Part shown: positions 45,423-50,396 of the stretch, one piece after another | Numbering within the stretch: the stretch's first letter is position 1 | How the letters are laid out: the number at the start of each line of letters is the position of its first letter | From: Oscillatoria sp. FACHB-1406 | GTDB taxonomy: Bacteria > Cyanobacteriota > Cyanobacteriia > Cyanobacteriales > Spirulinaceae | Direction of reading: 5' to 3' | NCBI RefSeq assembly: GCF_014698145.1 | Contig: NZ_JACJSM010000005.1 | Location: 186,001 to 250,000 of the forward strand | Length of the DNA: 64,000 nucleotides | Program-made: the position numbers and the translations under genes | Notes under the pieces: generated by a model | The model's input: the letters and a program-made list of their open reading frames with translations, nothing else | Told to the model about the DNA's origin: nothing | The model's database searches: none

Positions 45423-46943
45423 ATGTCATATATCCCTGGTAAACCAGCTTCCTATTGGATTGACTCAACAGCAAAAATAGACGATTTGCCTTCCGGCAAT
45501 GTCCTATCAGTTGATGTCGCCATTGTTGGCGGAGGCTTAATCGGAATTACTGCGGCAACCCTCCTCAAACGGGCAGGAAAGCGCGTTGCAGTTATCGAAG
45601 CGGAAAGCATAGGGATGGGAACAAGCGGCCATACCACGGCTAAAATTACCTCTCTACACCAACTTATTTACGCCGATCTGATCGATAAAATTGGGGAAGA
45701 GAAGGCTAGACTTTACGCAGAATCGAACGAAGCCGCGATCGCGTGGATTGCTAAGATGGTCGAAGAAGAAGGCATCGACTGCGACTTCAGCCGTCAGAGT
45801 GCTTATACCTTCGCCGAATCTGAAAAAGATCTGTCCAATGTCGAAAAGGAAGTCAACGCAGCGCTGAAACTCGGACTTCCCGCTTGTTTGGTACAAGAAA
45901 CCTCCTTACCTTTCCCGATCGCGGGAGCCGTAAAATTTGATAATCAAGCTCAATTTCACATTCGCAAGTATCTATTGCACCTCGCGAAAAATATCCCCGG
46001 TGACGGCAGCTACATCCTAGAAGGCGCGCGGGTTGAAGAGATTGAAGAAGGCGAACCTTGCACGGTGAAAAGCAACAAAGGAACGGTGCAAGCCACTGAT
46101 GTTATCGTAGCAACGCACCTACCCATCCTCAACGAAGGGCTATTTTTTGCTAAATCTTACCCGAAACGCTCCTACATCGTCGGCGCGCGCATTCCAGCCG
46201 ATCGCGCCCCTCAAGGGATGTTCATCGGTGCGGAAGATAAAAACTACTACTCCATTCGGACAACGCCTTACGAGGGCGATTTATTGCTTCTCGTCGGCGG
46301 CGAAGGGCATAAAGTTGGGGAAAAAACCGACACTGAGGAGTGTTATTTAAACCTGGAAGCTTACGCGCGCGATCGCTTCGGGGTAGACTCGTTTGAGTAT
46401 CGCTGGTCTACTCAGGATATGGTTTCCTTCGATCGCCTGCCCTACGTTGGCAAACTCACCCCCCTGAATCATCATATCTACGTGGCGACGGGGATGAGTC
46501 TCTGGGGAATGAGCAAGGGAACGATGGCTGGGATGTTACTATCGGATTTGATTTTAGGTAAAGAAAATCCTTGGGCAGAACTGTACGACTCTCTGCGCGC
46601 GACTCCCTTCTTGTCGGGAACTTCGATTAAAGAGAATGCAGGTGTTGCGACGCACATGATCGGCGATCGCCTCAAAGGTTTAATGTCCTCCATCTCCGAT
46701 GTGGAAATGGGTGAAGGCAAACTCGTCACCGTTGATGGGGATAAGGTTGCGGCTTACCGAGACGAGACTGGCGAGTTGCACGCCGTTTCTGCGGTTTGTT
46801 CTCACTTAGGCTGTATCGTCAATTGGAATAGTGCTGAGAAAAGTTGGGATTGTCCCTGTCACGGCGCGCGTTTTGACTGCGACGGACAGATTTTGCACGG
46901 TCCGGCTGTTAAACCGCTGGAATCCTTGAAGGGACAAAGCTAA
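45423..46943 (+). CDS. FAD-dependent oxidoreductase fused to a Rieske [2Fe-2S] domain
   Basis: 506 aa in two parts. Residues about 25-390 are a DAO-type FAD domain: VAIVGGGLIGITAATLLKRA (dinucleotide motif) and GMGTSGHTTAKITSLHQLIY. Residues about 430-500 are a Rieske domain with cluster ligands C459/H461 (CSHLGC) and C477/H480 (CPCHG). C464 and C479 match the disulfide pair of cytochrome b6f-type, high-potential Rieske proteins. No signal peptide is evident, so it is probably cytoplasmic. The family is widespread in cyanobacteria; its substrate is unknown. It is monocistronic. Confidence 0.9.
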   Translation: MSYIPGKPASYWIDSTAKIDDLPSGNVLSVDVAIVGGGLIGITAATLLKRAGKRVAVIEAESIGMGTSGHTTAKITSLHQLIYADLIDKIGEEKARLYAESNEAAIAWIAKMVEEEGIDCDFSRQSAYTFAESEKDLSNVEKEVNAALKLGLPACLVQETSLPFPIAGAVKFDNQAQFHIRKYLLHLAKNIPGDGSYILEGARVEEIEEGEPCTVKSNKGTVQATDVIVATHLPILNEGLFFAKSYPKRSYIVGARIPADRAPQGMFIGAEDKNYYSIRTTPYEGDLLLLVGGEGHKVGEKTDTEECYLNLEAYARDRFGVDSFEYRWSTQDMVSFDRLPYVGKLTPLNHHIYVATGMSLWGMSKGTMAGMLLSDLILGKENPWAELYDSLRATPFLSGTSIKENAGVATHMIGDRLKGLMSSISDVEMGEGKLVTVDGDKVAAYRDETGELHAVSAVCSHLGCIVNWNSAEKSWDCPCHGARFDCDGQILHGPAVKPLESLKGQS

Positions 46944-46982
46944 GGTTGCCATCACCAAGGTAGTGAGGACAAATTTGGGTAG

Positions 46983-47001
46983 GGGCGAATGCCATTCGCC
47001 C
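46983..47001 (+). repeat. Palindromic GGGCGAAT/ATTCGCCC hairpin
   Basis: GGGCGAAT, loop GCC, ATTCGCCC, then GGTTTTCT, 40 bp after the FAD-Rieske stop. The same palindromic motif occurs in the 14996 element. It could act as a terminator for the gene before it. Confidence 0.55.
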
Positions 47002-47060
47002 GGTTTTCTACCGATTCGATTGTCCTCACCAATATCTCTATTGCTTTATCACTGGAGTTT

Positions 47061-47252
47061 AGCATCGGGTAGGGTGGGCAGCGCCCACCAGTCAGAACCT
47101 TGGTGCGTTGAGGAACGTATTTTCACCTTTCAAGTAGCGTTATATCATTGACTATCAGCATCGGGTAGGGTGGGCAGCGCCCACCAGTCAGAACCTTGGT
47201 GCGTTGAGGAACGTACTTTCACCTTTCAAGTAGCGCTATATCATTGACTATC
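47061..47252. repeat. Two tandem 96-bp units
   Basis: Unit 1 is 47061-47156 and unit 2 is 47157-47252; they differ at only a few positions (for example ACGTATTTTC versus ACGTACTTTC). Each contains GGTGGGCAGCGCCCACC-type palindrome sequence and ends TAGCGTTATATC / TAGCGCTATATC, so they are relatives of the 106-bp family. A recent tandem duplication. Confidence 0.8.
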
Positions 47253-47416
47253 AGTGACATTCAAAAAGGATTTTCGTCTGCCGAGTCCTCGGCTTGATTT
47301 TGGAACGCCGAGTCGAAAAACTGGGGATTACAAACAAGCGAACTGACTCACCTCTCTAAAAAAATGAGCCAGTTCAGCCAGAACACTTGACAAAATTTAC
47401 AACTTGTTCTGTTAAA

Positions 47417-47518
47417 TCGATACTTGCCAAAAAATGAGCGACCCTAAAAGCTGAAAGCCTTACCTGGTGGGCGTTGCCCACCCTACCTGATGTCCTAACC
47501 GAGGTGTTTAGCGCTATA
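47417..47518. mobile_element. MITE-like repeat, copy C (diverged)
   Basis: About 102 bp with the order of copy A: a left end eroded to ATCGATACTTGCC, AAAAGCTGAAAGCC, GGTGGGCGTTGCCCACCC, GATGTCCTAACCGA, ending TAGCGCTATA. It ends 4 bp from the stop region of the kinase gene. The rest of 46944-47521 holds nothing else recognised. Confidence 0.7.
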
Positions 47519-47521
47519 CCT

Positions 47522-49720
47522 CTAGCATCCTTCCTCATCCGGGTTGCAAGAAAGTAGGAAGCCCCTTCCCGGTTCAGAAGATTTTCTGGCTTGGTTTTCG
47601 CCAATCTCAGTGGCACGTCTTACCCGGTTTTCGCCGATCGCAGCGGGTTTTTTCAATAGGGTTTCGCCGATCGCCAAGGGTCGTCTTACCCGAGCTTCGT
47701 CAGTCGCAGCAGGTCTTCTCGATTGAGGCCCATCTGAAGCAGGAGGTTCGCTATCCGATGGAAAGATATCGTTATCGGGATTGTTGGGCGAGATGGGAAT
47801 TTCCGGATTGCGAGGGACTGGCGGCTGGGCGGCAGAGGGGGAAGGAGAAGGCTGCGGTGATGGAGGGGGAGAAGGCTCGCTCGGCGTTTCAGGTGCTTGG
47901 TTTTGTTTCTCCTCGCGGGCTTTACTTTGTCTGGCTTGATTGGTCAACTCTTCCAACTTAGCGCGCCAATAACGGTTATTGGGCAATTTGCTGTTACCGT
48001 AAGCGATAACATCATCCCACTTCCCTTGGTCGAAGGCCCGTTTGGCTCGTTCGTAATTATTTTGAGCTTCCGACCAGGTACTGCGCCAAGTGTCGAGATT
48101 TTTTTGCGCGTCGTCGTAACTCTTGCTGACTTCAGGAACCGATCGCAACTGCTCGATCGCTTTGTCGATTTCGCCGCTTTCATACAGTTCTCGCGCTTTA
48201 TTCAACAGATCTCCGCCTTTATCCGGTTGTGTGGCGGGCGTTGGCGAGGGTTTGGGAGTCGGCTTTGGTTTTGGGGGAATTAGGACGAAGGGTTGGTTGT
48301 CGCGGGAACATTGAACGAAATCCGAACCATTGTAAACCCAGCCCCGAGCGGGAGCCTTAACTTCTAACCAACCGTTTTGTTGGTTGCCGGTGAGTTGCAA
48401 GGTTGTGCCATTGCTGACGGTATCGACGACAGAGCGATCGGTTCCCGGCCCGGAACGCACGTTTAAGTTACCGCTGAGGACGACTTTACAGCTTTTCAAA
48501 TCGGTTTTTTCAACCGCATCAACGGTGTTATTACTACCGCGCGTACCGCTAAAAGCATCGGGAATCTTTTTCACCGCCCAAGAAATCCCAAAGACAATGA
48601 AAAATACGGCTGCCATTGTCGTCCCGAACATCATCCAAGGCAAACTATCACTCTTGCGCGGAACGGGTTGCAGATCGGCCGGATTGAAGCGCTGAATCGG
48701 TTGGGGTTGGGGCTGAGGTGCGGGTGCGGGTGGTGGAGGTGCGGGCGGTTTAATTCCCGGAACCGCATAGGTTTGTTTTTGGGAGAGGGGAACCGTGTAA
48801 TCTGGCGGCGGCAAGGTTTGCGGTTCGTTCTGGGCCGGAGAAACGGGGGGCGTAGCAGAACGGGCGGAAGCTTGGGTGGGGGCGACGGGAACGCTGAGTT
48901 GCTCGAGGGCTTGTAAAACTTCGGCCGCCGACTGATAGCGATCGCGAAAATGATAGCGCGTCATCCCCGTTAGAACCGTTGCCAGTCTCGGACTGACAGC
49001 AGCGCGATGCTGCCAGAGAATTTCGCCGGTATGGGGATCGTACTCGAATTGTTGCGGATTTATGCCGGTAATCGCTTGCAGCGCGATCGCGCCGAGGGCA
49101 TAGATATCGCTACTCGGGCGGGGTTGTCCCTTCGCCTGTTCGCTGGGCATATAGCCGGGAGTGCCGATCGCGACGGTATAGTTAGGACTGACGGCATTCG
49201 CGCCCCCCGTCAGCATTTGCGTCGTCACCTGTTTCACCGCCCCGAAATCCACCAACACCAGATTTCCGTCGTAATTGCGGCGCAAAATATTATCGGGTTT
49301 GATATCGCGGTGAATTACGCCGCGACTGTGGACGAATTCGAGAATCGGCAGTACGCCTTTAAGCAAGTCGATAACTTTATTTTCCGGCCAAGGACGATCC
49401 GGCAGTAACTCGCTAGTGAGTGGATGTCCTTCGACATAATCTTGGACGAGGTAAAATTCCCGATCTTCTTCAAAATACGCCAGCAATCGCGGGATGCGAT
49501 CGTGGGAACCTAACTGTTCGAGGATTTCCGCCTCGGAGGTAAATAAGCGCCTTGCTGTCGGCAAAAACTGCGGATCGTTACTAACCGGCTTAAGATGCTT
49601 CACCACGCAAGTCGGATTGCCCGGGCGGCGGATGTCGCGAGCGATGTAGGTTTGCCCAAAGCCGCCAGCCCCTAAAGGTTGAGTAATTTCGTAACGTCCG
49701 TCCAGGAGTCTGCCTAACAT
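47522..49720 (-). CDS. Serine/threonine protein kinase with SH3b domain and repeat tail
   Basis: 732-aa membrane-anchored eukaryotic-type kinase. Kinase domain (about 1-270): glycine loop LGAGGFGQTYIARD, lysine VVKHLKP, catalytic HRDIKPDN, DFG as DFGAVK, and GTPGYMPSEQAKG in the activation segment. A proline-rich linker is followed by one membrane span at about 362-386, an SH3b domain at about 410-470 (NLNVRSGPGTDRSVVDTVS), then a helical repeat region and a Pro/Ser-rich stretch. The tail (666-720) is five 11-residue repeats, e.g. RVRRPLAIGET. All catalytic residues are present, so activity is expected. The ATG at 49720 is followed at once by the kinase fold. It is not near a phosphatase or obvious substrate. 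Confidence 0.93.
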   Translation of the reverse strand: MLGRLLDGRYEITQPLGAGGFGQTYIARDIRRPGNPTCVVKHLKPVSNDPQFLPTARRLFTSEAEILEQLGSHDRIPRLLAYFEEDREFYLVQDYVEGHPLTSELLPDRPWPENKVIDLLKGVLPILEFVHSRGVIHRDIKPDNILRRNYDGNLVLVDFGAVKQVTTQMLTGGANAVSPNYTVAIGTPGYMPSEQAKGQPRPSSDIYALGAIALQAITGINPQQFEYDPHTGEILWQHRAAVSPRLATVLTGMTRYHFRDRYQSAAEVLQALEQLSVPVAPTQASARSATPPVSPAQNEPQTLPPPDYTVPLSQKQTYAVPGIKPPAPPPPAPAPQPQPQPIQRFNPADLQPVPRKSDSLPWMMFGTTMAAVFFIVFGISWAVKKIPDAFSGTRGSNNTVDAVEKTDLKSCKVVLSGNLNVRSGPGTDRSVVDTVSNGTTLQLTGNQQNGWLEVKAPARGWVYNGSDFVQCSRDNQPFVLIPPKPKPTPKPSPTPATQPDKGGDLLNKARELYESGEIDKAIEQLRSVPEVSKSYDDAQKNLDTWRSTWSEAQNNYERAKRAFDQGKWDDVIAYGNSKLPNNRYWRAKLEELTNQARQSKAREEKQNQAPETPSEPSPPPSPQPSPSPSAAQPPVPRNPEIPISPNNPDNDIFPSDSEPPASDGPQSRRPAATDEARVRRPLAIGETLLKKPAAIGENRVRRATEIGENQARKSSEPGRGFLLSCNPDEEGC
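47561..47725 (-). repeat. Five 33-bp units encoding the kinase tail repeat
   Basis: Coding repeats, each 11 codons: QSRRPAATDEA, RVRRPLAIGET, LLKKPAAIGEN, RVRRATEIGEN, QARKSSEPGRG. The core is R/K-R/K-P-x-A-I-G-E, with middle units best conserved at both DNA and protein level. Confidence 0.8.
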
Positions 49721-50012
49721 GAGAAGATGCGCGTTATAGATTTCACCATCAATATTATTCTCATACAGGACGAGCTATGCTTCTTCGGGAAAAATCCTAT
49801 GGATTTTCGCAGCGGACAAAATCGCTTTCGGCAAGCATTACCGGTTTTTAACCCTTTTTTTTAAATCGAGCTAAAAAAAGGTAACACCTGCCCTATACCT
49901 AGAGATTGGGGATGAAGTCAGTGTAGGGTAGGACAACAGAGGATTAATCAACGAAAAATTTTCGCTCGCTCGCCGCTGATTTGCATTCCATTTTAAGCCC
50001 TTAACAATACTT
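49721..50012. other. Divergent gap upstream of kinase and 50013
   Basis: 292 bp with T- and A-runs (TTTTTTTT near 49855-49865) and no gene-like frame. It must hold the promoters of both flanking genes; none could be assigned. Confidence 0.4.
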
Positions 50013-50396
50013 ATGAAACCCAAATTTAAAAATGTTCGCGCTTGGGAACAGGCTCAATTGCTCATGCAGCCCGCTTTTATCCGGATTATCGACCATATTC
50101 GCAAGCAACTCGATCGCTCGGCTTGGAAGGGAACATATGAAGAAGTCGAAACGCCTTATCCCACTTATCTTCTACATCTGAAGCTCGGTACGCGATCGCA
50201 GGTTATCGATATTTGGGAATTGTGCTATCAAGTCTGTTTTAAAAACTACGAACCGACTCATGCGGCTATGACTTCTGTGGAAGTGGAAATCGATACAACC
50301 GCGATCGATGAAATGGGCGAGGTAAACTGGCAGCGTTTGGACGAAAAAGCCAAGCAATTAATCGAGAATATCTTTGCAAATTTACCCGCTCAATAA
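50013..50396 (+). CDS. Conserved-looking hypothetical protein
   Basis: Not recognised. 127 aa, cytoplasmic (no signal or membrane span), beginning MKPKFKNVRAWEQAQLLMQP. It is rich in aromatic and acidic residues, with a mixed alpha/beta pattern (SQVIDIWELCYQVCF; MTSVEVEIDTTAIDEMGEVN). Codon use and base composition are like neighbours, which supports a real gene. No domain can be named. It stands alone, 257 bp from icd (convergent). Confidence 0.6.
   Translation: MKPKFKNVRAWEQAQLLMQPAFIRIIDHIRKQLDRSAWKGTYEEVETPYPTYLLHLKLGTRSQVIDIWELCYQVCFKNYEPTHAAMTSVEVEIDTTAIDEMGEVNWQRLDEKAKQLIENIFANLPAQ

Follow-up and report, generated by a model that had tools for sequence, protein, structure and literature searches.

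The kinase and its domains

In this work we analysed a window of 64,000 nucleotides from Oscillatoria sp. FACHB-1406, in which a gene on the minus strand encodes a Ser/Thr kinase of 732 amino acids (AA) with a short repeat array near its C-terminus. The features of this gene are the following.

47522..49720, minus strand: Ser/Thr kinase gene, 732 AA, with the kinase domain at residues 10-262 (PF00069, E 4.8e-34)
48572..48628, minus strand: the lone predicted membrane span, residues 365-383 (top 19-residue hydropathy 1.91, runner-up 0.62)
48326..48472, minus strand: SH3_3 domain, residues 417-465, between Cys411 and Cys471 (PF08239, E 1.4e-9)
47921..48268, minus strand: helical module at residues 485-600, conserved in 23 of 29 relatives (31-57% identity; helices in the single-sequence model)
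47723..47890, minus strand: acidic linker rich in Pro and Ser, residues 611-666 (seen in the sequence; in kind and length it resembles entire orthologue tails)
47591..47722, minus strand: four units of 33 bp or 11 residues, residues 667-710 (repeat statistics and consensus matching)
47558..47590, minus strand: fifth unit as previously claimed, residues 711-721, no more than a decayed copy (12 of 33 bases match the consensus)
47525..47548, minus strand: Cys-bounded C-terminal octapeptide CNPDEEGC, residues 725-732 (C-[DN]-P-x4-C-stop is also present in the G106 and G224 kinases)

The protein is a Hanks-type kinase, as PF00069 scores 118.4 bits against a curated cut-off of 31.7 and both HRDIKPDN and DFG are present in the translation. 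The SH3b domain after the kinase scores 38.4 bits (PF08239, cut-off 27), and the helices of the helical module have pLDDT values mostly of 72-93 in a single-sequence model; the identities given above for this module were computed over at least 103 aligned positions. The kinase, SH3b and helical regions named in a preliminary description of this DNA are thus confirmed, and its placement of the tail on an extracytoplasmic side agrees with the predicted topology. A hydropathy scan finds one dominant span in the window kinase and in the 29 relatives, and all 30 proteins carry a Cys pair behind it. Beyond the span each relative has two Cys and no more (29/29), most pairs bracketing the SH3 region, whereas the window kinase has four: Cys411 and Cys471, and an extra pair at 725 and 732. 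These positions suggest that the SH3 domain, like everything C-terminal of the span, is extracytoplasmic, and that it is probably closed by a disulfide between the flanking Cys411 and Cys471.

In the intergenic region downstream of the kinase gene, positions 47061-47254 of the window hold two near-identical 96-bp tandem copies (97% matches) containing GGTAGGGTGGGCAGCGCCCACC, with a related palindrome (GGTGGGCGTTGCCCACCCTACC) at 47466-47487. Genome G000 (5.5 Mb) has 53 protein kinase domain matches, 52 of them over the Pfam cut-off, and many of these matches sit in open frames of 1770-1970 AA.

The repeat units

An offset of 11 residues is the best period of the array, with a BLOSUM score of 112, where shuffles average 22.7 and none of 5000 reaches it, and the DNA signal at offset 33 was reached in none of 3000 codon shuffles, in agreement with the tandem 33-bp repetition proposed previously. 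Four units are found at residues 667-710 (SRRPAATDEAR, VRRPLAIGETL, LKKPAAIGENR and VRRATEIGENQ), which match the 33-base consensus at 27, 24, 29 and 23 positions, respectively. The preliminary description had counted five, but the last one, ARKSSEPGRGF, matches 12 of the 33 consensus bases, as well as 18.5% of codon shuffles do, and its protein score is equalled by 1.55% of random 11-mers. The core given in that description, R/K-R/K-P-x-A-I-G-E, holds for units 2 and 3 only, unit 1 reading RRPAATDE and unit 4 RRATEIGE. The offset-11 score also covers part of the upstream linker, beginning at residue 644, but DNA support for units ahead of 667 is slight or absent (13 of 33 bases for residues 656-666, fraction 0.036).

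Any two of units 1-4 agree at 17-24 of 33 bases (52-73% identity), so the expansion was not recent, contrary to what had been suggested. The units are too divergent to be called by Tandem Repeats Finder at score 40. Pooled differences between units give a pS of 0.45 and a pN of 0.34, a ratio of 0.74 that comes from few, partly saturated sites and suggests a divergence near neutral. The array is of mixed charge, with 13 K/R and 7 D/E over residues 667-721 (net +6), and the whole tail from residue 601 has a net charge of -4. In single-sequence models, which are no proof of disorder, the tail has a mean pLDDT of about 61 and one weak helix at residues 694-714. The codon statistics of residues 667-732 are the best of the six frames, yet they rank low among in-frame pieces of 198 bases (2.3rd percentile) and are matched by 6.8% of out-of-frame pieces.

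The unit beyond the window kinase

Searches with the tail protein found only its own locus in its own genome (next E 0.53), nothing below E 1 in the 12 other genomes of the family (13 searched with its own, in which nothing else fell below E 0.5), and nothing better than E 0.037 in the 387 others of the order (388 searched). Eight of these others gave weak matches (E 0.037-0.099), which were discarded because chance alone would give about 39 at E 0.1 in a search of 388 genomes. Searching cyanobacteria for the 11-mer had been proposed as a check, and a two-unit profile, which detects the window itself at E 1.3e-10, gave nothing better than E 0.015 in the 385 other genomes of the phylum (386 searched). 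The genomes searched include a single one of the window's genus. A tblastn search over genome contigs, a collection from which records close to that of the window may be missing, yielded 355 pattern matches, none of which is a relative, and a further scan of genome contigs gave a single match, on a gammaproteobacterial contig, at 31% identity.

The absence of a named domain for the tail, noted previously, is borne out by Pfam-A, which gave Titin_Z alone (E 0.14, under its cut-off) and no repeat or coiled-coil family, and by NCBIfam, which gave only NepR (E 0.17). Families with an 11-residue repeat are known, for example LEA group 3, but the window tail matches no curated repeat model. Literature searches returned nothing relevant on an 11-residue repeat or on Pro-rich or disulfide-capped cyanobacterial kinases. 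Three other origins of the tail DNA were rejected: a mobile or interspersed repeat, as its own genome contains only itself and short matches (best E 0.315); an RNA element, as the single Rfam match over 46900-50100, to mir-1206, scores 23.6 bits where the gathering threshold is 70; and descent from the DNA of relatives, as blastn against the loci of eight of them gave nothing better than E 0.46.

Tails of the related kinases

The ectodomain module (residues ~403 to 604) is widespread, with a match at E 1e-5 or below in 329 of the 388 genomes of the order, some of them to the helical part only. A conserved gene of 127 AA without a Pfam family (window 50013-50396) is transcribed divergently from the window kinase gene; it adjoins the kinase in 6 of the 8 loci inspected, which supports the orthology of these kinases.

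Orthologues are conserved up to residue ~600, and their tails beyond this point are unrelated and mostly acidic or neutral. Every other orthologue examined lacks the 11-residue unit, the result that the preliminary description had named in advance as speaking against its reading of the tail. In 21 of the 23 relatives with the helical module, a set that includes L027, cut by a contig end, 0-90 AA follow residue 600, with a net charge of -14 to +1; the other two, L019 and L020, are of SPOR type and have long tails. The window tail extends 132 residues past residue 600, and is long because of the array. Strongly basic Pro/Thr/Arg tails are found, in the set of 29, in the more distant kinases L028, L029 and L031 (net +21 to +22), and otherwise in the SPOR-type pair only. 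Several relatives have tail repeats of their own, with periods of 6, 10, 12 or 16: the tail of L013 carries a 12-residue PKPTDSPKPTET array, that of L091 a PS-rich short repeat, and in one further kinase a 12-residue array reaches 43, on a score that counts identities only, misses the degenerate 11-mer of the window and thus understates degenerate arrays in relatives. The signature filter used in this survey admitted the non-kinase frames L050, L060, L061, L117 and L158, and missed L086. These comparisons show the tail to be the hypervariable part of a conserved kinase design. The relative L024 (G027) has an ARC6-like IMS domain (PF13355, E 1.7e-17) at residues 495-607, after the SH3 domain, and is another case of an exchanged extracytoplasmic end.

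The terminal cysteines

The window protein ends in CNPDEEGC-stop, a feature absent from the preliminary description. Among 84 distinct kinase C-termini, retained by a script as closed frames of at least 200 AA with a HRDxKPxN-type motif, C-[DN]-P-x4-C-stop is found in three: that of the window, that of G106 (L086, L128, L251), which ends in CDPAKKPC and also has an internal CDPKVPGNC, and that of G224 (L087, L249, L279), which ends in CDPATQSC. All three kinases are of the SH3b-helix type and they come from three different families. A search for the motif as a DNA pattern gave 41 matches in the 13 family genomes, where the reversed pattern used as a control gave about half as many (21), and 33 matches in nine genomes of the other two families, among which G106 and G224 were included because they carry the motif. 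Of these 74 matches in 22 genomes 71 were read, the remaining three ending in TGG, with no stop, and the only convincing genes among them are the three kinases; the other matches are in frames of at most 45 codons, in one of 82 codons, interrupted, or TGG-ended.

When 26 kinases are placed in a tree by their residues 1-600, the motif-ended proteins fall in scattered positions and are not sisters, which suggests either that the motif is ancestral and was often lost, or that it was gained more than once. As the Cys end is missing from nearly all orthologues, the importance of that end is only putative. Its presence in two distant kinases indicates that the window frame ends properly and that the array lies inside a linker running from the helical module to the terminus. 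Accordingly, a frameshift artefact is unlikely, and the reading of the tail as a run-on past a lost stop was dropped when the motif was found in these two kinases.

Discussion

The array is probably a lineage-specific, slippage-expanded, mostly disordered extracytoplasmic spacer of mixed charge, and not a conserved binding domain. The protein would be a receptor-like Hanks-type kinase, with a cytoplasmic kinase domain, one span, and an extracytoplasmic SH3 domain and helical module followed by a hypervariable tail, in which a 33-bp segment would have been duplicated or have slipped to give four 11-residue units, long diverged since. Such a spacer would push the Cys-bounded end (C-N-P-x4-C) farther out, so that it lies within or passes through the wall. 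Among the points against this reading are the conservation by position of R/K-R/K and I-G-E within the units, which is compatible with some constraint, and the weak codon statistics of residues 667-732.

The preliminary description had proposed that a basic tail binds the wall or a polyanionic glycan, and the net charge of +6, with an R/K-R/K pair every 11 residues, is in keeping with a functional module that binds peptidoglycan, exopolysaccharide or another polyanion by its spaced basic pairs and localises the kinase, as are the wall- or glycan-compatible ends found at the same place in other kinases (SPOR, PF05036, in L020; the basic tails of L028, L029 and L031). However, the window tail is overall negative (-4), orthologue tails without SPOR have net charges of -14 to +1 and pN/pS among the units is 0.74; the idea is weakened because neither the unit nor the charge recurs in any orthologue, and we consider such a module unlikely. 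Alternatively, everything past residue 666 could be a functionless neutral run-on or noise: the tail is unique to one genome, its codon signal is weak, the differences between units are near neutral, and orthologues manage without the array. But the frame closes exactly with C-N-P-x4-C-stop, an ending that reading on beyond a lost stop would not produce and that recurs in two distant SH3b-helix kinases, with no other frame longer than 82 codons among the matches inspected in 22 genomes. A neutral tail as a whole is therefore rather unlikely; the repeats themselves could be neutral inside a real linker. Finally, the period of eleven residues and the helix at 694-714 in both single-sequence models recall a coiled coil or helix of hendecad type, through which the ectodomain, and hence the kinase, would dimerise. 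This is very improbable, given the Pro at position 4 of units 1-3 and the Gly behind Ile, a predicted helix that spans parts of units 3 to 5 only (block-mean pLDDT ~57-69), the lack of a match to any Pfam repeat or coiled-coil family, and a sole suggestive PDB match, to designed toroids (E 0.0011).

Comparison with known kinases places the protein among its kind. A survey of the STKs of cyanobacteria described additional domains of 14 kinds, most of them C-terminal, and counts SH3b among them, with Synechocystis SpkD (Sll0776), of STK family II, as one of its carriers (PMC2176072). Like the window kinase, members of this family are Hanks-type with a C-terminal SH3b, but the passages of the survey considered here mention no 11-residue repeat or terminal Cys motif (PMC2176072). 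Closer in sequence, the L004/L055 kinase (G008), from the same order and 59% identical, has the same order of parts and the two Cys around SH3b; the L004 tail differs, being acidic and 53 AA long, with neither the 11-mer nor tail Cys. L019 and L020 share with the window kinase the kinase domain, the span, two post-span Cys and the helical module, and differ by a SPOR domain, a peptidoglycan binder, at the end of the tail (PF05036 at E 4.1e-6 in L020; near-identical end sequence in L019); in the window kinase no SPOR match was found at E up to 1. With PASTA kinases (PknB type, NF033483) it shares a kinase domain, which aligns at E 7.8e-38, one span and a region predicted to be extracytoplasmic, but NF033483 scores 130.8 bits against a cut-off of 450, and there is no match to a PASTA domain.

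In conclusion, the array is genuine but unremarkable, a repeat specific to one lineage within a kinase of known kind; taken alone it is of limited interest, and the Cys motif is the more interesting by-product. We tentatively propose, as a possibility of low probability, that C-[DN]-P-x4-C-stop works as an extracytoplasmic cap, forming a small disulfide loop that would serve in redox sensing or attachment and would have been gained or kept repeatedly in kinases of this type, and that the array is an evolvable spacer setting the reach of the cap from the membrane. These observations support a picture in which the sensing half of cyanobacterial membrane kinases has a fixed SH3b-helix core and an end that is exchanged freely, for acidic Pro-rich repeats, SPOR, basic tails, or an 11-mer array with a Cys-bounded terminus. 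The recurring C-terminal Cys motif provides a concrete, testable handle on kinases with unknown ligands.
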